A DNA stretch of 39,589 nucleotides, taken from contig JAEUPF010000109.1 in NCBI GenBank assembly GCA_016790425.1, positions 1 through 39,589 of the forward strand, read 5' to 3'. Numbering within the stretch: position 1 is the stretch's first letter; each line of letters opens with the position of its first letter. Positions 1,058 to 11,077 of this stretch are shown piece after piece. The position numbers and the translations under genes were made by a program. This stretch comes from Rubrivivax sp. Its GTDB lineage: Bacteria > Pseudomonadota > Gammaproteobacteria > Burkholderiales > Burkholderiaceae_C. A model generated the notes under the pieces. That model searched no databases and had not been told where the DNA came from. It saw only the letters and a program-made list of their open reading frames with translations.

Positions 1058-1216
1058 ATGAGCGCACCACACGACGACGACAAGGGCCCGGTGCCCTGGA
1101 TGCAGCAACTGCTGGACAACCCGTTCCTGTTGTTGTTCCTCGGCGTGTTCATCCCGATGGTGGTCTACACCGTCTGGGGCGTGTACGACATCCTGACGCT
1201 GCCCCTGGCCAAGTGA
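1058..1216 (+). CDS. Small single-helix membrane protein, putative oxidase subunit
   Basis: This 52-aa product starts at ATG 1058, seven bases after an AAGGAG-type ribosome-binding site (1046-1051). Residues 1-20 are polar and acidic (DDDKG) and roughly residues 22-48 form one hydrophobic helix ending in LPLAK. It is the first gene of the plus-strand operon and lies 17 bases before the CuA subunit gene. Small one-helix subunits are common in heme-copper oxidases of the B and C families, so an accessory or assembly subunit is the natural inference. I do not recognise a specific family. Confidence 0.75.
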   Translation: MSAPHDDDKGPVPWMQQLLDNPFLLLFLGVFIPMVVYTVWGVYDILTLPLAK

Positions 1217-1233
1217 CGCGAAGGACCTGACCC

Positions 1234-1773
1234 ATGAGCGCCATCCTTCCACCGAGCGAACGCCTCTGGTACAAGCACCCCATCGACCGCGTCGAGGGCA
1301 CCTGGATCGCCATCGCGCTGACCTGGTGCCTGATCATGTTCTTCATGATGGTCGGCTGGCACATCTGGGGCAAGCAGAACCTGTCCACCGAGACCTACCG
1401 CACCACGCCCGACCAGTACTCGGCCAAGGTCGAGGCGATGGTCGCCAAGTACAAGGTGCGCGAGGAGACCGACGAGAAGATCCCGGTCGTCAAGCCGCCG
1501 CCCGGCAGCGACGTCTACCTGCTGGCGCGCCTGTGGGCCTTCTACCCGATCCTCGAGCTGGAGAACGGCAAGACCTACAAGCTGCACCTGTCGGCGATGG
1601 ACTACAACCACGGCTTCTCGCTGCAGCCGGCCAACATCAACATCCAGATGGTCCCGGGCTTCGAGCACGTCGTGACCATCACCCCCAACCAGAGCGGCCA
1701 GTACTCCGTCGTGTGCAACGAGTACTGCGGCATCGGCCACCACAAGATGGTCGGCCGCATCTACGTCAAGTGA
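1234..1773 (+). CDS. CuA-containing subunit II of a heme-copper oxidase/NO reductase (NorY/CoxB-like)
   Basis: The 179-aa product has one N-terminal membrane helix (about residues 24-45) and a periplasmic cupredoxin domain. All CuA ligands are visible: His126 (DYNHGFSL), then Cys161, Cys165, His169 and Met172 in CNEYCGIGHHKM, with Glu163 as the usual carbonyl ligand. CuA accepts electrons from cytochrome c and passes them to the subunit I hemes. The short length and single helix resemble B-family (ba3-like) and sNOR/eNOR-type subunit II rather than the two-helix A-type CoxB. It lies between the 52-aa protein and catalytic subunit I, 16 bases before the latter, in the usual II-I order of B-family operons. 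An intact CuA site implies a cytochrome c or cupredoxin donor. Confidence 0.9.
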   Translation: MSAILPPSERLWYKHPIDRVEGTWIAIALTWCLIMFFMMVGWHIWGKQNLSTETYRTTPDQYSAKVEAMVAKYKVREETDEKIPVVKPPPGSDVYLLARLWAFYPILELENGKTYKLHLSAMDYNHGFSLQPANINIQMVPGFEHVVTITPNQSGQYSVVCNEYCGIGHHKMVGRIYVK

Positions 1774-1789
1774 GGAGGAGGTGACGAGC

Positions 1790-3484
1790 ATGGCTACCAC
1801 CTATCGCACCTGCCCGCGCTCGGGCCTGCAGTTCGAGCGCAACGCCGAGAACCTGATGAAGGCCAACGCCTTCGTCGCCGTCGTCTGGCTGCTCATCGGC
1901 GGCCTGCTGGCCATCGGCGTCGTGCTGACGCGCTGGCCGGCCTTCCGCTGGCTCGAGGCCGACACGTTCTACATGACGCTGACGGCGCACGGCATCGACA
2001 TGCTGATCTTCTGGATCATCTTCTTCGAGATCGCCGTGCTGTACTTCTGCGCCTCGACGCTGCTGCGCAGCCGCCTGGCGACACCGAAGATCGCCTGGCT
2101 CGCGTTCGCGCTGATGCTGATCGGCTCCATCACCAACAACGTCGCCGTCTTCCGCGGCTCGTCCAGCGTGATGATGACCAGCTACGTGCCGATGATGGCC
2201 GAGCCGAGCTTCTACCTCGGCCTGATCCTGTTCGCCGTCGGCGCGCTGATCGGCTGCTTCGTCTTCTTCGGCACGCTCGTCGTCGCCAAGCGCGAGAAGA
2301 CCTACGAGGGCTCGGTGCCGCTGGTGGTGTTCGGCGCCATCACGGCGGCGATCATCGCGGTCTTCACCATCGCCTCGGGCGCGATCATCCTGATCCCGAC
2401 CTGGCTGATGTCGATGGGCATCGTCAAGGAAGTCAACGCGCTCGTCTACCGCACTATCTGGTGGGCGTTCGGGCACAGCTCGCAGCAGATCAACGTCGCC
2501 GCCCACATCTCGGTGTGGTACCTGGTCGCCGCGGTCGCCTTCGGCGCCAAGCCGATGAGCGAGCGCGTCAGCCGCGTCGCGTTCCTGCTGTACATCCTGT
2601 TCCTGCAGCTCGCCAGCGCCCACCACCTGCTGGCCGACCCGGGCCTCAGCACCGGCTGGAAGGTCGTCAACACCAGCTACTTCATGTACTTCGCGGTGCT
2701 GGCGTCGATGCTGCACGGCCTGACGATCCCCGGCGCGATGGAAGTGGCGCAGCGCCAGAAGGGCTTCACCAAGGGCCTGTTCGAGTGGCTGCGCAAGGCG
2801 CCGTGGGGCAACCCCACGTTCGCCGGCGTGTTCATCGCGATCATCGGCTTCGGCTTCCTCGGCGGCATCTCCGGCGTGATGATGGGCACCGAGCAGCTGA
2901 ACATGATCATCCACAACACGATCTATGTTCCGGGGCACTTCCACGCCACGGTGGTCATCGGCACCACGCTCACCTTCATGGCGCTGACGTACTACCTGAT
3001 CCCGGTGCTGTTCAAGCGCGAGGTCATCTCGCCGAAGCTGGCCAGCCTGCAGCCGTACCTGTTCGGCTTCTCGATGTACGCCTTCACGCTGGTGATGATG
3101 GGCGCGGGCACGCTGGGCGTCGCGCGCCGGCACTGGGACATGGCGTTCCAGGGCGCCGCGCTCGCCTACGAGTGGCCCGGCGCCGCCTACCTGATGATGG
3201 GTCTGGTCGGGCTGACCGGCATCGCAGCCATCACCGGCGGCGTGATCTTCATCTACATCACGGTGGGTTCGCTGCTGTGGGGCAAGAAGCTCGACAACGG
3301 CGTCGAGAGCCCGAACTTCACGCCGGTCGGGCGCGCCACTCCCGCCGCCGCCGCGCAGAGCTACGGCTCGATGGGCTTCGCCGCACCGGGGACGTTCACG
3401 CTGGCGATGGTCTTCCTGCTCGCCTTCGTGCTGTACTACTTCATCAACTGGAAGTACCTGTCCACGTTGTGGGGCCTGAGCTGA
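1790..3484 (+). CDS. Heme-copper oxidase superfamily catalytic subunit I, Tyr-to-Gln variant; probable NO reductase (sNOR/eNOR-like)
   Basis: A polytopic protein of 564 aa (about 13 helices). I chose ATG 1790 over a GTG at 1781 because GGAGGAGGTG (1774-1783) then sits at ideal spacing. All six canonical His are present: His67 (low-spin heme), His229, His278-His279 (in HHLLADPG, a B-family signature) and His383/His385 in VPGHFH. In O2 reductases of A and B families the residue four after the first CuB histidine is the cross-linked Tyr; here it is Gln233 (GHSSQQ). In cNOR that position is the FeB-ligating Glu. NO reductases lack this Tyr, so a NO-reductase function in the sNOR/eNOR group is likely, as in the norSY-senC clusters of ammonia oxidisers that also carry a CuA subunit and SenC. 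An O2 reductase with an altered site is the alternative. The superfamily is certain; the substrate is inferred. Confidence 0.85.
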   Translation: MATTYRTCPRSGLQFERNAENLMKANAFVAVVWLLIGGLLAIGVVLTRWPAFRWLEADTFYMTLTAHGIDMLIFWIIFFEIAVLYFCASTLLRSRLATPKIAWLAFALMLIGSITNNVAVFRGSSSVMMTSYVPMMAEPSFYLGLILFAVGALIGCFVFFGTLVVAKREKTYEGSVPLVVFGAITAAIIAVFTIASGAIILIPTWLMSMGIVKEVNALVYRTIWWAFGHSSQQINVAAHISVWYLVAAVAFGAKPMSERVSRVAFLLYILFLQLASAHHLLADPGLSTGWKVVNTSYFMYFAVLASMLHGLTIPGAMEVAQRQKGFTKGLFEWLRKAPWGNPTFAGVFIAIIGFGFLGGISGVMMGTEQLNMIIHNTIYVPGHFHATVVIGTTLTFMALTYYLIPVLFKREVISPKLASLQPYLFGFSMYAFTLVMMGAGTLGVARRHWDMAFQGAALAYEWPGAAYLMMGLVGLTGIAAITGGVIFIYITVGSLLWGKKLDNGVESPNFTPVGRATPAAAAQSYGSMGFAAPGTFTLAMVFLLAFVLYYFINWKYLSTLWGLS

Positions 3485-3497
3485 GGAGCGGCCAGCC

Positions 3498-4418
3498 ATG
3501 CGACCCTCGACCACCACTTCGCTGACGGCGGCAACGCCGGCCACGCCGGCCACCCTGGCCGGGTGGCTGCGCGTGGTGCTCGGCATCTTCAAGCTGCGCA
3601 TCGCGGTGCTGATCATGATCACCGCGCTGGGCGGCCTGGCGGTCGCGCCCGCGGGTGCCTTGACGGTCGTGCAGGCCACCGTGCTGGCGCTGTCGGTGCT
3701 GGTGGCTGCCGGCAGCGCCGGCGCCTTCAACCAGTTCTTCGAGGCCGACAGCGACCGCCTGATGGCGCGCACGCGCCAGCGCGCCTTCGCCAGCGGCGCG
3801 CTGCCGCGCAACGCCGCCTGGCTGACGGTCATCGTGCTGCTGGGGGTGCTGGCCGTGGCCGCGGCAGCGTGGGTGGTCAACGGCGTCGCCGCGTTCTTCG
3901 TCGCGATGGGCGCCCTCACCTATGCCGGCGTATACACGGTGGGCCTGAAGCGGCGCACGCCGTGGAACATCGTCATCGGCGGCCTGGCCGGCAGCTTCGC
4001 AGTGCTGGCCGGCGCAGCGGCGGTCGACCCCACCGTCGGCGCCCCGGCGTGGATGCTGGCGCTGGTGCTGTTCCTGTGGACGCCGCCGCATTTCTGGAGC
4101 CTGGCCATCGCCAACGAGGCCGAGTACCGCGCTGCCGGCGTGCCGATGCTGCCGGTGGTGGTGGGCGCCGAGCGCGCCGCGCGCATCGTGCACTGGCATG
4201 CGCTGGCGCTGGTGGGCTCGTCGCTGGCGCTGGTGCCGCTGGGCGGCGGCTGGCCGGTGGCCATCGGTGCCGGCGCGGGTGGCGCCTACTTCCTCAGCAA
4301 GACGGCAGCGCTGGCGCGCCGGCCCGAGCGGCGCACCGCGATGGCCGCGTTCTTCGCGTCGATGGTGCAGTTGAGCGCCCTGCTCGCTGCGGTGGCCGTG
4401 AATGCGGCGATCCGCTGA
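3498..4418 (+). CDS. cyoE: Protoheme IX farnesyltransferase (heme O synthase, CyoE/CtaB)
   Basis: This 306-aa UbiA-superfamily prenyltransferase adds a farnesyl group to heme B to make heme O in the inner membrane. The first Asp-rich site is intact (NQFFEADSDRLMARTRQR), followed by the characteristic YTVGLKRRTPWNIVIGG loop and the second site around residues 192-212 (WTPPHFWSLAIANEAEY). Length and about nine helices are normal. It starts 13 bases after the catalytic subunit (GAGGAG upstream) and its end overlaps the SCO gene by 17 bases, so translation is probably coupled. Its location inside the operon, with a CtaA-like gene across the promoter, suggests the neighbouring enzyme uses heme O or A rather than only heme B, which is notable if it is a NO reductase. 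Confidence 0.94.
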   Translation: MRPSTTTSLTAATPATPATLAGWLRVVLGIFKLRIAVLIMITALGGLAVAPAGALTVVQATVLALSVLVAAGSAGAFNQFFEADSDRLMARTRQRAFASGALPRNAAWLTVIVLLGVLAVAAAAWVVNGVAAFFVAMGALTYAGVYTVGLKRRTPWNIVIGGLAGSFAVLAGAAAVDPTVGAPAWMLALVLFLWTPPHFWSLAIANEAEYRAAGVPMLPVVVGAERAARIVHWHALALVGSSLALVPLGGGWPVAIGAGAGGAYFLSKTAALARRPERRTAMAAFFASMVQLSALLAAVAVNAAIR

Positions 4419-5439
4419 AAGCCATGGCCTGGCGCGCGCTGCAACCGCCGCCGCCTGTGCCCTGCTGCTGCTGCACGGCCTGAACGCGCCGGCCGCGGCC
4501 GGCGAAGCGACCGCGGCCACGCTCGTTCCGGCAACCGCGCAGTCAGCCGCGGTCGTTGCGACAACCGTTGCGACAACCGTTGCGACAACCGTTGCGGCAA
4601 CCGCTGCGGCGCCCGCCGAGTCTGGCGCCGCCGAGGCGGCCGGCGCCAAGGCCGGCGCGCTCGACGAGAACGAAGCACTGCGCCTGAGCCAGGCGGCCAT
4701 CGGCCGCACCGTCCCCGACCTCACCCTGCTCGACCGCGAAGGCCGCCCGGTGCGGCTTTCGGCCTACCGCGGCAAGCCGCTCCTGGTGAGCTTCATCTAC
4801 ACCGGTTGTTTCCAGATCTGCCCGACGCAGACGCGCACGCTGCACGAAGCCGTCGCGGGCCTGGACCGCATGGTCGGCCCCGGCCAGTTCAACGTCGTCA
4901 GCATCGGCTTCAACCAGCCGTTCGACGACCCGGGCGCGATGCGCTCGTTCGCGCGCCAGCACCGCATCGACCGCGCCAACTGGGAGTTCCTGAGCCCGCC
5001 GCGCGACACCGTGCGGGCGCTCACCGAGGCGTTCGGCTTCAGCTTCGTGGCCACGCCGGCCGGCTTCGACCACCTCGTCGGCGTGACCGTGGTCGACGCC
5101 GAAGGCCGCATCCATGCGCAGGTCTACGGCGAGCGCATGCGTGCCGACGCGCTCGGCCGCCCGCTGCGCGCGCTGCTGCTCGAAGCACCGTGGCCGGCCG
5201 AGGCGCGCTCGACGCTGGCCGCGGTGGTCGAACGCGTGCGCATCCTGTGCACCATCTACGACCCCGACACCGGCGAATACCGCTACGACTGGAAGCTCAT
5301 CTTCGAGTTGATCGGCGGCCTCCTCTTCTTCGGCAGCGTCGCGATCTACCTGTTGCTCGACTGGCGCGACCGGCGCCGTGCGAGAAGGGCGCTGCCATGC
5401 CCGGCCCCGGCATCGAGTCCTTCCGGCAGCGCGGCCTGA
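4402..5439 (+). CDS. SCO1/SenC-family copper chaperone with C-terminal membrane anchor
   Basis: 345 aa. An N-terminal signal sequence (about residues 10-33) is followed by an Ala/Thr/Val linker with tandem VATT repeats (52-67), then a thioredoxin-fold SCO domain (about 98-265). The copper ligands Cys136 and Cys140 (GCFQICP) and the distal His224 (GFDHLVG) are all present. A hydrophobic helix near residues 300-319 and a basic tail end the protein; a C-terminal anchor is unusual because most SCO proteins are anchored only at the N-terminus. SCO proteins deliver copper to or reduce the CuA site, consistent with the CuA subunit four genes upstream. The start overlaps cyoE, and the end overlaps the next gene by 43 bases. 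Confidence 0.9.
   Translation: MRRSAESHGLARAATAAACALLLLHGLNAPAAAGEATAATLVPATAQSAAVVATTVATTVATTVAATAAAPAESGAAEAAGAKAGALDENEALRLSQAAIGRTVPDLTLLDREGRPVRLSAYRGKPLLVSFIYTGCFQICPTQTRTLHEAVAGLDRMVGPGQFNVVSIGFNQPFDDPGAMRSFARQHRIDRANWEFLSPPRDTVRALTEAFGFSFVATPAGFDHLVGVTVVDAEGRIHAQVYGERMRADALGRPLRALLLEAPWPAEARSTLAAVVERVRILCTIYDPDTGEYRYDWKLIFELIGGLLFFGSVAIYLLLDWRDRRRARRALPCPAPASSPSGSAA
4555..4602 (+). repeat. Four tandem 12-bp units in the SCO linker
   Basis: Unit GTTGCGACAACC, three exact copies and one with a single change, followed by a decayed fifth. Translated in frame it gives VATT-VATT-VATT-VAAT in the periplasmic linker between the signal/anchor and the SCO domain. Expansion or loss by 12 bp would change linker length without breaking the frame. 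Confidence 0.92.
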
Positions 5440-7046
5440 GCGCCTGGCGCGCCGCCGAGCGCGCACTGGACCGCCTCGCCGGCGCCGCGGCCAATCCGCT
5501 GCGGCACCTGGGCGCGGTGGGGATGCTCGCGTTCTGGCTCGTCACCGCCAGCGGCGTCGTGCTCTACATCTTCTTCGAAACCTCGGTCGGCGAGGCCTAC
5601 CCGTCGGTGGCGCGGATGGCCCGCTGGCCCTTCGCCGCGGGCGCGCTGCTGCGCGGGCTGCACCGCTACGGCACCGACCTGCTGGTGCTGGCCACGGCGC
5701 TGCACCTGCTGCGCGAGTGGCTGCACGGGCACGAGCGGGGCTTCCGGCGCTTCTCGTGGCTCACCGGCACCGGCCTGATCGCCTTCGTCTTCGTCGCCGG
5801 CATCGGCGGCTACTGGCTGCCCTGGGACCGCCTGGCGCAGTACTCGGCCACCGCCACCGCCGAGTGGCTCGACGCGCTGCCGCTGGTCTTCCCCACGCCG
5901 TTCGCGCGCAACTTCCTCGCCGCCGTCGACGACCGGCTCTTCTCGCTGTTCATCTTCGTGCACGTGGGCGTGTCGCTGCTGATGCTGTTCGCCTTGTGGT
6001 TCCACGTGCAGCGCATCTCGCGCCCGGCGGCGTGGCCGGCGCGCGCCGTGGCGTGGCCGATGTGCGCCGTGCTGGTGGTGGTGTCGCTGGCGCTGCCGGT
6101 GCAAAGCGCGCCGCCGGCGGCGCTGGCCACGGTGCCCGCCACGCTGCCGTTCGACTGGATCGTGCTCTTCGTGCACCCGCTCGTCGACGCCACTTCCCCT
6201 GGCGTCGTCTGGGCCGCCGTCGGCGCGGCAACGGTCGTGCTCTTCGGCCTGCCGTTCATGCCCACGCAACGGCGCGCAGCGCGCTCGCCGGTGGCGGTGG
6301 TCGATGCCGGCAACTGCAATGGCTGCAAGCGCTGCCTGGCCGATTGCCCCTACGAGGCGGTGCGCATGGTGCCGCACCCGAACCAGCGCATCGGCCGCAC
6401 GCTGGCCGTCGTCGACGCCGACCTGTGCGCCGGCTGCGGCATCTGTGCCGGTGCCTGCCCTTCCTCGACGCCTTTCCGCAGCGCCGCCACGCTCGTCACC
6501 GGCATCGACATGCCGCAGCTCGCCGTGGGTGCCTTGCGGCAGCGGCTGCAAGGCGCGCTCGCCGCTTGCAGCGCGCCACGGCCGCTGGTCGTGTTCGGTT
6601 GCGAGCAAGGCGCGCGCGCGGCCACGCTCGCCGGCGACGATGTTTGCTCCTTCGAGCTGCTGTGCGCCGGCCAGCTACCGCCATCGTTCGTCGAGTACGC
6701 CTTGCGCGACGGCGCCGCGGGCGTGCTGGTGGCCGCGTGCGGCGAAGGCGGCTGCGAGTTCCGCCTCGGCGAGCGCTGGACGCGCGAGCGGCTGAAGGGT
6801 CTTCGCGAACCGCACTTGCGCGCCAGCGTCGAAGCCCGCAGGATCGAGCTCGCCTTCGCCGGCGCCGGCGACGAACGCTCGCTCGCCGGCGCGCTGCAGC
6901 AGCTGCGCCAGCGCGTGCAGGCGCTGCCCCGGCCCGTGCCCGAAGGCGCGCCAACGCTGACCGGGCCCGTGCCCGTACCCGAGCGCGTGCAAGCGCTGCC
7001 ACCGCCCGTCGCGGCGCTGCCGCCCGGAAGACAACACCATGCCTGA
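5397..7046 (+). CDS. Fusion: diheme cytochrome b6-like domain + 2x[4Fe-4S] ferredoxin + MvhD/FlpD-like domain
   Basis: 549 aa from ATG 5397 (GAAGGG seven bases upstream). Residues about 35-290 are membrane helices with the cytochrome b6 heme pairs His89/His103 and His189/His203, each 14 residues apart, and the YWLPWD motif after the third helix. Residues 305-356 hold two [4Fe-4S] sites: Cys307/310/313/317 and Cys344/347/350/354. Residues about 395-520 resemble MvhD/FlpD, the delta subunit of methyl-viologen hydrogenase that passes electrons to heterodisulfide reductase, with Cys402, 417, 423, 448 and 453 and a GVLVAACGEGGCEF core. The protein could move electrons between a soluble cytoplasmic donor and the membrane hemes. 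The domain order is directly visible; direction and partner are inferred. I do not know a characterised protein with this arrangement. Confidence 0.85.
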   Translation: MPGPGIESFRQRGLSAWRAAERALDRLAGAAANPLRHLGAVGMLAFWLVTASGVVLYIFFETSVGEAYPSVARMARWPFAAGALLRGLHRYGTDLLVLATALHLLREWLHGHERGFRRFSWLTGTGLIAFVFVAGIGGYWLPWDRLAQYSATATAEWLDALPLVFPTPFARNFLAAVDDRLFSLFIFVHVGVSLLMLFALWFHVQRISRPAAWPARAVAWPMCAVLVVVSLALPVQSAPPAALATVPATLPFDWIVLFVHPLVDATSPGVVWAAVGAATVVLFGLPFMPTQRRAARSPVAVVDAGNCNGCKRCLADCPYEAVRMVPHPNQRIGRTLAVVDADLCAGCGICAGACPSSTPFRSAATLVTGIDMPQLAVGALRQRLQGALAACSAPRPLVVFGCEQGARAATLAGDDVCSFELLCAGQLPPSFVEYALRDGAAGVLVAACGEGGCEFRLGERWTRERLKGLREPHLRASVEARRIELAFAGAGDERSLAGALQQLRQRVQALPRPVPEGAPTLTGPVPVPERVQALPPPVAALPPGRQHHA

Positions 7047-7641
7047 ACCGACCCGCTCCCCTGCCCCGCCCGGGCCCGCAGCGGCCGCCGCAGCGGCCGC
7101 ATCGACATCGAAGAACGCAGCGTCCGGCACGCACGCGCGCACCACGCCCGCGGCGCTGGCCGGCCAGCTCGTGCTCTACGGCCTGTTCGCCGCCTTCATC
7201 GGCGTGTTCTCGCAGTGGCCGTCGTACCACCACCTCGGCCCCGACGAAGCCGTCGTCAAGGTCAGCTTCGTGCGCGTGGGCAAGCCGGTGGGCGACTGCC
7301 ACAAGCTCACCGACGCCGAACTCGCGCGCCTGCCGCCGAACATGCGCGCGGCCACCTCGTGCCCGCGCGAGCGTTCGCCGGTGGCGGTGAGCGTGCGCAT
7401 CGACGGCAAGACGGTGCTCGAGCGCAGCGCCCCGCCGTCGGGCCTGAAGAAGGACGGCGCCTCGGCGCTGTACGAGCGCCTGGTGGTGCCGGCCGGCGAG
7501 CGGCGCATCGAAGTGCACCTGTCCGACGACGTGCGCGCGCGCGAAGCCGGCTGGCGGCGCGACGAGACGCGCAAGCTCGCGCCCGGCCAGGTGCTGGTGA
7601 TCGACTTCGATGCCGAGAAGGGCGGCATCACGCTGCAATGA
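7039..7641 (+). CDS. Membrane-anchored protein of unknown function in the oxidase-like operon
   Basis: 200 aa. A Pro/Ala-rich N-terminus (1-45) precedes one hydrophobic helix (about 48-66, LVLYGLFAAFIGVFS), then a soluble domain of about 130 residues, predicted periplasmic, containing two Cys (about 83 and 108) and a conserved-looking HLGPDEAVVKVSF segment. The end is rich in beta-like alternation (RIEVHLSDDVRAR, VLVIDFDAEKGG). The gene overlaps the preceding cytochrome b fusion by 8 bases and the following heme-copper-like gene by 4 bases (ATGA), so it is co-translated with both. I do not recognise a family; a structural or assembly subunit of the same complex is an inference from position. 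Confidence 0.8.
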   Translation: MPEPTRSPAPPGPAAAAAAAASTSKNAASGTHARTTPAALAGQLVLYGLFAAFIGVFSQWPSYHHLGPDEAVVKVSFVRVGKPVGDCHKLTDAELARLPPNMRAATSCPRERSPVAVSVRIDGKTVLERSAPPSGLKKDGASALYERLVVPAGERRIEVHLSDDVRAREAGWRRDETRKLAPGQVLVIDFDAEKGGITLQ

Positions 7642-9143
7642 ACAACGCAAGACCCGTGGACATGAACACCCTCGGCCTGCACCGCGCCGGCCCTGCGCAG
7701 GCACAGGCCGCCGCTGCCGGCGCGGCCGCTGCCCCGGCGGCCGCCGCTGCCAGCGGCCGGACCACCTTCTCGCTGCCGGCCATCGCGCCTGCGCAGCGGC
7801 TGCTGGTGCGCTGCTGGCTGTGGCTGGCACTGGCCGCGCTCGCCGGCTCGGGCCTGTTCTCGGTGCTGCTGGTGCTGGCGCGCACGCCCTACGCCAACGC
7901 GTTCCTGCCGGCCGGCGACTTCTTCCGCGTCGCGCTGGTCGTGCACGTCGACCTGTCGGTGCTGGTGTGGTTCGTCGCACTGGCCGGGCTCTTGTGGAGC
8001 ATCAACCGCCGCCCGGCGACGGCGGGCACGGCCTCGCCGCCGCCGCGCGCGGCCTGGCTCGCCTGGGGCCTGTGTGCCGCGGGCGCCTTCGGCATGGCGG
8101 TGGCCGCGTTCGTCGAGCCCGGCACGCCGGTGATGGCCAACTACGTGCCGATGCTCGAGAGCGCCACCTTCCGCAGCGCGCTGCTCGTGTTCGCCGCCGG
8201 TGGCGCCGTGCTGGTGGCGCGCTCGCTGTGGCGCCCCGCCCCGGTGGGCCCGGCGCCCGATGGCACCGCGGCGCTGCGCTTCGGGTTGCACGCCAGCGTC
8301 GTCGCCGCGGGCGTGGCGCTGCTCGCCTTCGCCTGGTCGATCGCCACCGTGCCTGCCTCGCTGCCGGCCAAGGCCTACTACGAGATCCTGTTCTGGGGCG
8401 GCGGCCACGCGTTGCAGTTCACCTGGACGCTGCTGATGCTGGTGGGCTGGCTGGTGCTGGCCAGTGCCTGCGGCGCGCGCGTGCCGCTCAGTCCGCGCGT
8501 GGTGCTGCTGCTGTTCGCGGTGGCGCTGGTCAGCGTCTTCACCACGCCGCTGGCGTACCTGGTGCACGACGTGAGCACCGTCGAGCACCGCGACATGCAC
8601 ACCTGGGGCATGCGCTTCGGCGGCGGCCTGGCCATCCTGCCGCTGGTGCTGGCGGTGGGCCTGGCGGTGGCACCGCTGCGCCGGCTCGAACCGGCGCAGC
8701 GGCCGCTGCGCGCCGCGCTGCTGGCTTCGATGCTGCTGTTCGTCGCCGGCGGGCTCATCGGCCTGACGATCGACGGCAGCAACGTCAAGATCCCGGCCCA
8801 CTATCACGGCTGCATCGTCGGCGTGACACTGGCCTTGATGGGCCTGGTCATGCACCTGCTGCCGCAACTCGGCTGGCGCGCGCCGGCCGGGCGGCTGGCG
8901 GTGGCGCAACCGTGGCTGTACGGCGTCGGCCAGTTGCTGCACATCGTGGGCCTGGTCTGGTCGGGCGGCTACGGCGTGCAGCGCAAGGTGGCCGGCGGCG
9001 AGCAGGTTCTTCGTTCGACTGCAGAGGTGGCCGGCATGGGTCTGATGGGCTTGGGAGGCCTGCTGGCGATCGCCGGCGGGCTGCTGTTCGTGATCGTGGT
9101 GCTGCGCGCGATGCGCGGTGCGCCGGAGGCCGCCGCGCAATGA
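7638..9143 (+). CDS. Second heme-copper-oxidase-like subunit I, degenerate metal site
   Basis: 501 aa, about 12 helices after an Ala-rich N-terminus; start ATG 7638 overlaps the previous stop. Similarity to subunit I encoded at 1790-3484 is visible by eye: NYVPMLESATF against SYVPMMAEPSF at the same relative place. His103 (VVHVDLSVLVW) matches the low-spin heme ligand, His257 (GGGHALQF) the first CuB histidine, and His388/His390 (IPAHYHG) the helix-X pair. The His-His pair of helix VII is not intact; His310, His317 and His321 lie there instead. No Tyr follows His257 at +4 (Phe261; Gln260 at +3). It may bind hemes with a different or absent third metal. It could be a divergent NOR-type catalytic subunit or an electron-transfer subunit. 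Confidence 0.75.
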   Translation: MNNARPVDMNTLGLHRAGPAQAQAAAAGAAAAPAAAAASGRTTFSLPAIAPAQRLLVRCWLWLALAALAGSGLFSVLLVLARTPYANAFLPAGDFFRVALVVHVDLSVLVWFVALAGLLWSINRRPATAGTASPPPRAAWLAWGLCAAGAFGMAVAAFVEPGTPVMANYVPMLESATFRSALLVFAAGGAVLVARSLWRPAPVGPAPDGTAALRFGLHASVVAAGVALLAFAWSIATVPASLPAKAYYEILFWGGGHALQFTWTLLMLVGWLVLASACGARVPLSPRVVLLLFAVALVSVFTTPLAYLVHDVSTVEHRDMHTWGMRFGGGLAILPLVLAVGLAVAPLRRLEPAQRPLRAALLASMLLFVAGGLIGLTIDGSNVKIPAHYHGCIVGVTLALMGLVMHLLPQLGWRAPAGRLAVAQPWLYGVGQLLHIVGLVWSGGYGVQRKVAGGEQVLRSTAEVAGMGLMGLGGLLAIAGGLLFVIVVLRAMRGAPEAAAQ

Positions 9144-11077
9144 TCCGTCTGCTCCAGCGCGCGCTGCGCGCCGCCTTCATGGCTGCCGAGGCGGTCTTCA
9201 ACCGCGCCTTCGGCGACCGGCTGAACCCGCTGTACCACCTCGGCTCGATCAGCTTCTTCCTGTTCTGGGTGGTCGGCGCCACCGGCATCGTTCTGTACGC
9301 GTTCTTCGACACCAGCGTCAGCGGCGCCTGGCGTTCGGTGCAGGCGATCACCGAAGGCGGCTTCGGCCTGGGCAGCGCCATGCGCACCGCGCACCGGCAC
9401 GCCACCGACGCGATGCTGCTGACGATGCTGCTGCACCTGGTGCGCCACTTCGCCTTCGACCACCTGCGCGGCTTCCGCTGGTTCAGCTGGGTCACCGGCG
9501 TCGTGCTGCTGTGGCTGGCCTACATCGCCGGCGCCAACGGCTACATGCTGCCGTGGGACCGGCTGGCGCAGTACGTCACGCAGACGAGCTTCGAGTGGCT
9601 GGACTGGCTGCCCGGATTCGGCGGCACGCTCATCCGCAACTTCATCGCTCCCGAGCACGTCAACGACCGCCTGTTCTCGCTGCTGGTGTTCATCCACATC
9701 GGCGTGCCGCTGGGCATGCTGCTGTTGCTGTGGGTGCACGTGCAGCGCGTGCCCAAGGCCGCCACGCAGCCGCCGCGGCCGATCACGCTGGCGCTGTTGG
9801 CGATGCTCGTCGTGCTGGCGGTGCTGGCGCCGGTGGCCAGCCACCCGCCGGCCGACCTGCACACGGCGCCGCAGACGCTGTCGATCGACTGGTTCGTGCT
9901 GCCGATCTTCACGCTCGTGCACCAGTGGTCGCCGCGCACGGTGTGGCTGCTGGTGGGCGGCGCGACGCTCGTGCTGGCCGTGCTGCCGTGGCTGCCGCCG
10001 CGGCGCGCCGGGCGGCCGCTGCAAGTGACGATGCACCCGGGCCCGGTGCGCGTGTCCGCGCGAAGCGGCGAGACGCTGCTCGAAGCGGGCCTGCGCGCCG
10101 GCGTGGCGCTGCCCTACGACTGCCGCGCCGGCGGCTGCGGCTTGTGCGTGTGCACGGTGCTCAACGGCAAGGTCGATCTCGGCCCCTACCAGGCCGCGGC
10201 GCTGACCGAGCCGATGCGCGCGCGCGGCCAGGCGCTGATGTGCTGCGCCGTGGCGCAGGAAGACGTCGAACTCGAAGTGCCCGACGTGCCCACGCTCAGC
10301 ACCGCCGCGGCGGCGGCGGCAGCGCCCAGGCGCTGGCAAGGCACCGTGCGCACGATGCAGCGGCTGGGGCCCGACCTGATGCGCCTGCACGTCGCGTTGC
10401 CGCCGGGCCAGCACATCGACTTCGTCGCCGGCCAGTACATCAACATCGTTCTCGAAGACGGCGCCAAGCGCGCCTTCTCGTTCGCCAACGCGCCGGCCGC
10501 GCCCGGCGCCCCGGCGCGCACCGACGGCGACGTGATCGAACTGCACGTGCGCCGCATCCCCGGCGGCCGCTTCACCGGCCATGTCTTCGAGGCCATGCGC
10601 GAAGGCGACCGCATCGACTTCGAAGGCCCGCTCGGCCGCTTCGCGCTCAACGACAGCGCGCGCCCGATCCTCTTCGTCGCCGGCGCCACCGGCTTCGCAC
10701 CGATCAAGAGCATTCTCGAAGACGCCTTCCGCCGCGGCATCTCGCGGCCGATGAAGCTGTACTGGGGCGTGCGCACCGCCGCCGACCTGTACCTGCTGGA
10801 CGAGCTGGCGCGCTGGCAGCGCGAGCACGCCAACTTCGGCTTCGTGCCGGTGCTCTCGCACGCCGAGGCCGACACCTCGTGGAGCGGCCGCCGCGGCCTG
10901 GTGCACGAGGTGCTGCTGGCCGACAACCCCGACCTGCGCGGCAAGGAGATCTACGCCTGCGGCTCGGTGAAGATGGTCGAAGCAGCCGTGCCCGACTTCG
11001 TGGCGCACGGCATGGAAGAGGAGTTCTGCTTCTCCGACGCGTTCACGCCCAGCGCCGCGAAGCCGGCGGGGACCTGA
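9140..11077 (+). CDS. Fusion: diheme cytochrome b6-like domain + [2Fe-2S] ferredoxin + FAD/NAD(P)H ferredoxin reductase
   Basis: 645 aa, start ATG overlapping the previous TGA. Residues 30-285 are membrane helices with b6-type heme pairs His85/His99 and His186/His200 and GYMLPWD. Residues 293-385 form a plant-type [2Fe-2S] domain, Cys328-x4-Cys333-x2-Cys336 with the fourth ligand Cys368 or 369. Residues about 398-635 are a ferredoxin-NADP reductase-type module: RAFSFANAP (FAD), GATGFAPIKSI (nicotinamide nucleotide) and a terminal YACGSVKMVEAA. The tail is like phenol hydroxylase P5 or CDP-6-deoxyglucoseen reductase. The polypeptide should take electrons from NAD(P)H through FAD and [2Fe-2S] to two b hemes in the membrane, or the reverse. 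It shares its cytochrome module with the fusion at 5397-7046, pointing to duplication with different soluble partners. Last gene of the operon. Confidence 0.88.
   Translation: MIRLLQRALRAAFMAAEAVFNRAFGDRLNPLYHLGSISFFLFWVVGATGIVLYAFFDTSVSGAWRSVQAITEGGFGLGSAMRTAHRHATDAMLLTMLLHLVRHFAFDHLRGFRWFSWVTGVVLLWLAYIAGANGYMLPWDRLAQYVTQTSFEWLDWLPGFGGTLIRNFIAPEHVNDRLFSLLVFIHIGVPLGMLLLLWVHVQRVPKAATQPPRPITLALLAMLVVLAVLAPVASHPPADLHTAPQTLSIDWFVLPIFTLVHQWSPRTVWLLVGGATLVLAVLPWLPPRRAGRPLQVTMHPGPVRVSARSGETLLEAGLRAGVALPYDCRAGGCGLCVCTVLNGKVDLGPYQAAALTEPMRARGQALMCCAVAQEDVELEVPDVPTLSTAAAAAAAPRRWQGTVRTMQRLGPDLMRLHVALPPGQHIDFVAGQYINIVLEDGAKRAFSFANAPAAPGAPARTDGDVIELHVRRIPGGRFTGHVFEAMREGDRIDFEGPLGRFALNDSARPILFVAGATGFAPIKSILEDAFRRGISRPMKLYWGVRTAADLYLLDELARWQREHANFGFVPVLSHAEADTSWSGRRGLVHEVLLADNPDLRGKEIYACGSVKMVEAAVPDFVAHGMEEEFCFSDAFTPSAAKPAGT

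Follow-up and report, generated by a model that had tools for sequence, protein, structure and literature searches.

A conserved nine-gene cluster in Rubrivivax combines an eNOR-type putative nitric oxide reductase with two cytochrome b fusion proteins

Introduction

Nitric oxide (NO) is toxic and nitrous oxide (N2O) is a strong greenhouse gas, yet an NO reductase is seemingly missing from some denitrifiers that carry nirS. The eNOR family of NO reductases was reportedly described by Murali, Hemp and Gennis in 2024; its members are said to combine a B-family heme-copper subunit I, in which glutamine takes the place of tyrosine, with a cupredoxin subunit II. Here, we analyse a cluster of nine genes at positions 1058–11077 of a 39,589-nt stretch of DNA from Rubrivivax sp. 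(contig JAEUPF010000109.1, assembly GCA_016790425.1; the whole stretch is called the window), whose products are numbered P0001 to P0009. The cluster resembles the eNOR family in these two subunits, but its core is followed by genes for a heme O synthase, an SCO protein, two cytochrome b fusions, the protein P0007 and a second subunit I that lacks CuB.

The order of the core genes has counterparts in the qCuANOR cluster of Bacillus (cbaC-cbaB-cbaA-senC-cbaD) and the sNOR cluster of nitrifiers (norSY-senC), which likewise comprise a small helix protein, a CuA subunit, subunit I and SenC (PMC3475470, PMC6967387). Those clusters differ from ours in an asparagine at the tyrosine position and in a six-helix protein, and the available parts of both papers mention neither a cytochrome b fusion nor a second subunit I. 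Furthermore, eNOR is listed for four of six Gallionellaceae narGH genomes with nirK or nirS in a report whose available part does not mention the fusions (PMC10734462). Both the enzyme class and the core of small protein, CuA subunit, subunit I and SCO are already known.

The two fusions recall other systems. Their membrane parts share four heme histidines with cytochrome b6 and include a subunit IV region with an aligned Glu/Asp-Trp of the Qo motif; in contrast to the b6f complex, each is a single chain that stops after the Qo region and is joined to reductase domains, and no member of the Rieske or cytochrome c, c1 or f families was matched among the nine products, the genome beyond the operon not being searched. 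The ferredoxin and FlpD part of P0006 resembles HdrA2/MvhD and matches positions 571–771 of the HdrA2 model below its cut-off. P0006 is, however, membrane bound, and neither an HdrA flavin domain or subunit, HdrB/C nor a hydrogenase was found among the nine products (this search too stopped at the operon). The C-terminus of P0009 has the [2Fe-2S]-FAD-NAD order (FAD, flavin adenine dinucleotide) of the NADH reductases BenC and MmoC, but here the head is fused behind a cytochrome b, and the curated models score far below their cut-offs. Lastly, Garcia Martin reportedly described in 2006 a 'novel cytochrome' of Accumulibacter, in which NAD(P) and flavin domains accompany a cytochrome b/b6 and which was not tied to an NO reductase. 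By description, it may resemble the products of the P0006- and P0009-like genes of Candidatus Accumulibacter vicinus UBA5574.

An original prediction, made from the letters of the window, considered the composition of this locus to be without a described counterpart. As for the combination, the nine genes were not met together in the literature that we searched, which consisted mostly of partial texts and did not include the main eNOR paper. Since its catalytic subunit has the signature of the known eNOR class, the terminal enzyme as such is unlikely to be new.

Results

The cluster is one conserved unit

The region contains nine open reading frames (ORFs), one more than the eight genes of the original prediction, all on the + strand. 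Seven of the products have Pfam matches, the exceptions being those of 52 and 200 amino acids (aa). Upstream of the SCO gene the ORFs are separated by gaps of 13–17 nt, and from this gene onward they overlap by 4 to 43 nt (4402/4418, 5397/5439, 7039/7046, 7638/7641 and 9140/9143, as called); the claim that all later genes overlap thus holds from the SCO gene on. Among the other predicted parts, the cluster's own CuA subunit, copper chaperone and heme O synthase were confirmed by Pfam COX2, Pfam SCO1-SenC and TIGR01473, respectively. Of the two heme-copper-like integral subunits, both match Pfam COX1, but P0008 is probably not catalytic. The two diheme cytochrome b fusions have the proposed architectures by Pfam, with four histidines each; they carry a Qo-like motif, however, and look like b6f-type, quinone-reacting proteins more than plain wires.

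To describe the cluster elsewhere, we use the best 80 of 549 subunit I relatives as named loci; further carriers exist. A homologue of P0001 precedes the CuA gene in all loci that show this gene (14/14 and, for the named loci, 80/80). Fifty-one named loci extend at least 9.6 kb past subunit I, and these contain the SCO gene and P0007 without exception (51/51 each), P0008 in 50 and the heme O synthase in 43 cases. Both fusions are present in 44, the FAD one alone in four, the FlpD one alone in three, and none of the 51 lacks both. Since the gene content recurs in the named loci and the cofactor ligands are invariant or nearly so, the nine-gene cluster is one conserved unit, beyond chance. Because at least one fusion is present in every named locus of this length, the two may represent alternative heads on one machine.

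The terminal enzyme has the residues of an eNOR

The first three genes encode a one-helix protein of 52 aa in a CbaC-like position (P0001, 1058–1216), the CuA subunit II (P0002, 1234–1773) and the predicted catalytic heme-copper subunit I (P0003, 1790–3484; Pfam COX1). The ligands expected for the cofactors are fully conserved, where conservation is counted over alignments above bit cut-offs and not over genomes. In P0002, the CuA ligands H126, C161, E163, C165, H169 and M172 are found in 104/104 alignments, and the same holds for the heme and CuB ligands H67, H229, H278, H279, H383 and H385 of P0003. Also in 104/104 alignments, P0003 has Q232 and Q233, of which Q233 occupies the site of the cross-linked tyrosine of the oxidases. 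The best profile matches of P0003 in the PDB are cytochrome c oxidases, mostly of the ba3 type, which places it in the B family.

cNOR and qNOR are marked by an FeB motif of the HLWVE type; this motif is absent from the P0003 sequence and was seen in six NOR genes on other contigs. According to Table A4 in the available part of PMC8756737, the tyrosine position holds Gln in eNOR, Asn in sNOR and CuANOR, Asp in gNOR and Tyr in the O2 reductases. Four ba3-like relatives in the P0003 alignment have the motif GHxxVY, with the tyrosine four residues past the CuB histidine of transmembrane helix (TM) 6, where P0003 has Gln. In a plasmid search, the single match read from each of the haloarchaeal, Geobacillus, Deinococcus and Methylobacterium sequences is of the Tyr type. 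In a tree of subunit I sequences, P0003 groups with relatives that share the Gln, from Thermus, Thermomicrobium and a Defluviimonas plasmid, apart from the four Tyr-type relatives; 19 of the 30 inner branches are well supported, and long branches and skewed composition were flagged.

P0002 and P0003 together show the features of eNOR, that is, a B-family subunit I with six histidines, a Gln for the Tyr and an adjoining CuA subunit II. By its sequence, P0003 bears the eNOR signature, a class assignment that is made by residues and not by comparison to a reference eNOR sequence. We consider it very probable that P0001–P0003 carry out NO reduction. NO is favoured over O2 as the substrate because Gln replaces Tyr and because of the linkage to nirS described below. 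Membership of P0003 in sNOR or qCuANOR, whose genes have the same order, was dropped, as it has Gln instead of Asn.

The two following genes may serve the maturation of the enzyme, judging by their families. P0004 (3498–4418) is a heme O synthase (CyoE/CtaB) that belongs to the UbiA family in Pfam and scores above the cut-off of TIGR01473. P0005 (4402–5439) is an SCO1/SenC copper chaperone with a CxxxC in its sequence; its start possibly lies downstream of the called position 4402.

On two Thermus plasmids (L212 and L213), the P0003-related subunit I gene at 8983 has Lys in place of the second histidine of HxH (GHFK). A heme-copper gene with Asn at the tyrosine position (GHVFIN) and a very long branch was found at L252 (G100:C226:44727-46055), near the module of genome G100, the sole carrier without nirS. 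On the Defluviimonas plasmid, a hemerythrin-family gene (L211, 14517–14921) follows the core, a cytochrome b protein and a hypothetical protein.

Two cytochrome b proteins with different cytoplasmic heads

P0006 (5397–7046) consists of Cytochrome_B, two [4Fe-4S] clusters (Fer4) and an FlpD/MvhD domain (the FlpD fusion), and P0009 (9140–11077) of Cytochrome_B, a plant-type [2Fe-2S] domain (Fer2), FAD_binding_6 and NAD_binding_1 (the FAD fusion). In P0006, the four heme histidines, 12 cysteines, D253 and W254 are conserved in 98/98 alignments, save one gap at C313. In P0009, the four heme histidines, four cysteines and D250 are found in 71/71 alignments, W251 in 70/71 and G515 in 67/71. The four-helix part of the fusions matches cytochrome b6 (1.5e-31), and a profile of the next 91 residues matches subunit IV of b6f (1.6e-5), with Asp-Trp aligned to the Glu-Trp of the Qo motif PEWY. 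Within this motif, an invariant Asp takes the place of Glu, Pro is mostly lost and Tyr is often Phe. Judged by these features, P0006 and P0009 are probably b6f-type, quinone-reacting proteins with different cytoplasmic heads; that a quinone participates is probable from the b6f-like character of the two membrane parts and from the Asp that stands invariably at the position of the Qo Glu.

In three loci (L326, 7632–11523; L323; L330), two tandem FlpD-type fusions stand beside P0007 and P0008, replacing the pair of FlpD and FAD fusions. These loci belong to a family with small, partly incomplete genomes.

P0007 and the second subunit I

P0008 (7638–9143), the second subunit I-like protein (I2), retains the histidines of TM2, TM6 and TM10: H103, H257, Q260, H388 and H390 are present in 81/81 alignments. 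The CuB histidine pair (HH) of TM7 is replaced. We infer that P0008 binds two hemes without CuB and therefore does not perform classical catalysis. While its sequence profile matched no PDB chain at 0.01, its structure model (predicted local distance difference test, pLDDT, 82.8) matches subunit I of the ba3 and cbb3 oxidases over nearly the full length (best Foldseek E 1.9e-7, TM-scores of about 0.6–0.7). The tree places P0008 and its relatives on a long branch, as sister of the Gln group (99/97). P0008-like genes with 39–46% identity were also seen at three loci (L049, L050 and L051) with no eNOR core within the fetched stretch.

P0007 (7039–7641) is a protein of 200 aa with an N-terminal helix and a beta domain, and is probably periplasmic. 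Its cysteines C87 and C108 are conserved in 102/104 alignments. The model has a pLDDT of 87.7, and a structure search with it returned no fold match at E<=0.001.

Occurrence of the module across genomes

We searched for P0003, P0008, P0006 and P0009 in the same order-level sample of 200 genomes from 51 families. P0003 is found in 19 genomes and P0008 in exactly those 19 (E<1e-100, which excludes G145 at 1.5e-61; the uncut tally is 20/200). For the fusions, a match had to span both the cytochrome and the C-terminal domain. The full P0006 fusion occurs in 17/200 genomes, all of which carry P0003, and the full P0009 fusion in 19/200, of which 18 carry P0003; the exception, G153, has 7% contamination. 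The co-occurrence proposed as a check in the original prediction is thus borne out within the order, and the case named there as refuting, fusions common in genomes without the terminal subunits, was not seen in it apart from G153. Outside the order, six of 20 fetched loci show the FlpD fusion and P0007 near nirS but no core. Carriers among the named loci include Rubrivivax, Piscinibacter, Acidovorax sp. 210-6, Castellaniella defragrans, Curvibacter, Simplicispira, Paucibacter, Herbaspirillum and also UBA5574.

In a phylum-level draw of 398 genomes, the FlpD fusion (E<=1e-50) was present in 34, and loci were fetched from 20 of the 33 genomes other than that of the window. Ten of the 20 fetched loci contain the eNOR core, 11 contain nirS and 18 contain either or both, the remaining two being contigs of 6.0 and 5.1 kb. 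Since P0008 is present in four and the full FAD fusion in one of these 20 stretches, the wider unit looks like the core plus the FlpD fusion and P0007.

Most carriers of the module have nirS

Within the order-level sample, nirS is present in 52/200 genomes, namely in 18/19 carriers of the module compared to 34/181 non-carriers (Fisher 3.6e-11). This count uses E<1e-140 and excludes d1-biosynthesis relatives as well as shorter or weaker matches of G122, G161 and G172 (the uncut tally at E<=0.001 is 119/200). The association is also seen within the 11 families that have both states, where nirS is found in 16/17 carriers and 4/35 non-carriers. In eight of the 18 carriers, nirS lies within about 25 kb on the contig of the module (G022, G118, G039, G055, G092, G010, G065 and G126), in G126 beside the P0009 gene only; in the genome of the window it sits on a different contig (C137). 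It also lies within 21 of the named loci (at least 58% identity, some cut at contig ends). On a Thermus plasmid whose subunit I shares 44% identity and the same Gln with P0003, nirS precedes the core at a distance of about 3 kb and the next gene downstream encodes an Rrf2 regulator; on its sister plasmid a DUF542 protein follows. NirK showed no significant association (21/200 genomes over the cut-off; 0/19 carriers and 21/181 non-carriers, p 0.23), nor did NosZ (29/200; 4/19 and 25/181, p 0.49; E<1e-60, excluding G083 at 7.5e-24).

No cNOR or qNOR motif was found in the 32 COX1-family matches outside the module that come from 11 of the 18 nirS carriers; in these 11 genomes all such matches were read, in the other carriers only a part. 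The 32 matches look like A-type or cbb3 oxidases or P0008-like proteins, save three short fragments and two unclassified ones (G011:C46 and G132:C8), which have neither HH nor HxH. Completeness is 92–100% in eight of these 11 genomes.

The upstream region points in the same direction. Among 102 sequences given, 96 have a usable CuA gene, and FNR/Dnr-type boxes with at most one mismatch occur in 31 of these 96 upstream regions compared to 1.3 expected from shuffles, although the regions are related and not independent. In the window, a box with three mismatches (TTGACctggTTCAT, 925–938, + strand) lies about 120 nt before the first gene. It is not significant in the window alone; it does stand in the same place as the better boxes of the relatives, and close relatives keep similar sites.

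Discussion

We consider it fairly probable that the operon is an eNOR-based unit for respiratory or protective NO reduction in NirS bacteria, in which the cytochromes b link cytoplasmic reductant, quinone and NO. P0001–P0003 would form an eNOR-type enzyme in which electrons pass from CuA to a low-spin heme and on to the high-spin heme/CuB site, where two NO would be reduced to N2O, with P0004 providing heme O and P0005 copper. P0006 and P0009 would allow electron exchange of their cytoplasmic heads with a quinone site close to the periplasm, the FAD/[2Fe-2S] head of P0009 serving NAD(P)H and the [4Fe-4S]/FlpD head of P0006 a low-potential soluble partner. P0007 and P0008 might dock the cytochromes b onto the reductase. 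The likeliest flow would run from a cytoplasmic reductant over the heme b pair and quinone/P0008 to CuA and NO, and the NO reductase would thereby be supplied independently of bc1. The NO reductase step is the best-supported part of this proposal; the docking and the direction of flow we infer. A working link between the cytochrome b units and the reductase appears moderately probable, and flow from the cytoplasm to NO rather than the reverse is little better than an even bet. The chain from cytoplasmic reductant to NO or O2 in the original prediction is accordingly narrowed to NO as the favoured substrate, by the Gln and nirS, while its direction is one of several possible.

Several observations weigh against this proposal. 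UBA5574 has the module spread over three contigs, one with the core, one with the cytochrome b genes and one with I2. Outside the order, the FlpD fusion and P0007 accompany nirS in six long stretches of the 20 fetched (L324, L325, L327, L328, L329 and L338) that do not show an eNOR core, and the two may therefore have a broader role in denitrification. Pfam Cytochrom_B_C matched one of four membrane parts of the fusions, weakly (0.014). As to NO, an association with nirS would be expected of whatever gene belongs to a denitrification cluster, G100 carries the module without nirS, cNOR- or qNOR-like genes are present in seven of the 18 nirS carriers (six by HLWVE, G055 by resemblance), and among the 11 genomes in which no NOR was recognised, G000, G126 and G170 are just 78–85% complete. 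Finally, NO seems a wasteful use of electrons from NAD(P)H or ferredoxin, an argument against the direction assumed here.

Part of this evidence would also suit a locus shared by two units, one an eNOR and the other a separate enzyme of the cytochromes b, P0007 and P0008. The latter could be, for instance, a ferredoxin:quinone or NAD(P)H:quinone oxidoreductase that serves nitrite and NO reduction alike. This explanation, which overlaps with the one above, is possible but carries less weight with us: it fits the split over contigs in Accumulibacter, the six stretches without a core and the annotated surroundings of the core in its Thermus and Thermomicrobium relatives, where no fusion is listed, but not the overlapping reading frames or the finding that P0008 and P0003 share exactly the same 19 of 200 genomes. 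In a further alternative, quinol would drive a reverse or bifurcating flow: of the electrons from its oxidation at the Qo-like site, one would go downhill via P0008 and CuA to NO, and the other would pass the heme b pair and reduce NAD(P)+ in the case of P0009 or, in that of P0006, an acceptor of low potential, so that NO reduction pays for making reductant. A low-potential FlpD head is more sensible as a site of product formation than as a donor to NO, the b6f-type Qo Asp-Trp is kept (98/98; Trp 70/71 in P0009), and the 'novel cytochrome' has been invoked for anaerobic reductant supply in Accumulibacter (available part of PMC2289847). The lack of a Rieske or cytochrome c match among the nine products can be read both ways, as it also leaves this flow without a Rieske-like acceptor. 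Pro and Glu of PEWY are altered, and the FAD/[2Fe-2S] head of P0009 is like those of BenC and MmoC, in which electron flow starts from NADH. We regard such a flow as unlikely. A Rieske-free, NO-driven bifurcating supercomplex, in which a P0006/P0009 (hetero)dimer would split quinol electrons between NO (via P0008 and CuA/eNOR) and NAD(P)+ or a ferredoxin-level acceptor, is more doubtful still.

Least probable of all, in our view, is a high-affinity ba3-like O2 reductase with its own electron supply, for which NO reduction would be a side reaction. P0003 does belong to the B family, with cytochrome c oxidases, mostly ba3, as its best solved relatives; furthermore, the related sNOR has been argued to be an oxidase (available part of PMC6967387), and Accumulibacter expresses a gene called ba3 cbaA (available part of PMC6446978), possibly a counterpart of the P0003 gene. 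Against this stand the Gln for Tyr in 104/104 alignments and the linkage to nirS. In addition, an extra oxidase is not obviously needed, because all 19 carriers possess one or more further COX1 matches with a high score.

If the operon is indeed an eNOR-based NO reduction unit, it may explain how some denitrifiers without a classical NO reductase cope. UBA5574 is listed among the Accumulibacter genomes without Nor (Camejo et al. 2019, available part of PMC6446978). This genome has an eNOR core with GHSSQQ (L210), the FlpD fusion, P0007 and FAD fusion in a row on a second contig (L284) and, on yet another one, a gene resembling P0008, and its missing NO reductase is therefore a direct prediction. 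Surveys based on norB/norZ alone would miss such modules, because the plasmid records that we saw label relatives of subunit I as oxidases of the cbb3 or b(o/a)3 type. The cluster also raises a bioenergetic question: without genes for a Rieske protein or a cytochrome c in the operon, how can an NO reductase be connected to a quinone site and a redox head in the cytoplasm?

Upstream of the cluster, a divergent ORF (P0010) occupies positions 1–924 of the window on the − strand. By tblastn, 15 of the 101 other sequences searched showed matches, all of them weak and partial, and hence P0010 is not counted as part of the operon. An assignment to CtaA was rejected, as Pfam gave no CtaA match and only a chance-level one to DUF4337 (0.16). 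P0010 is possibly a membrane protein, with a TER repeat.

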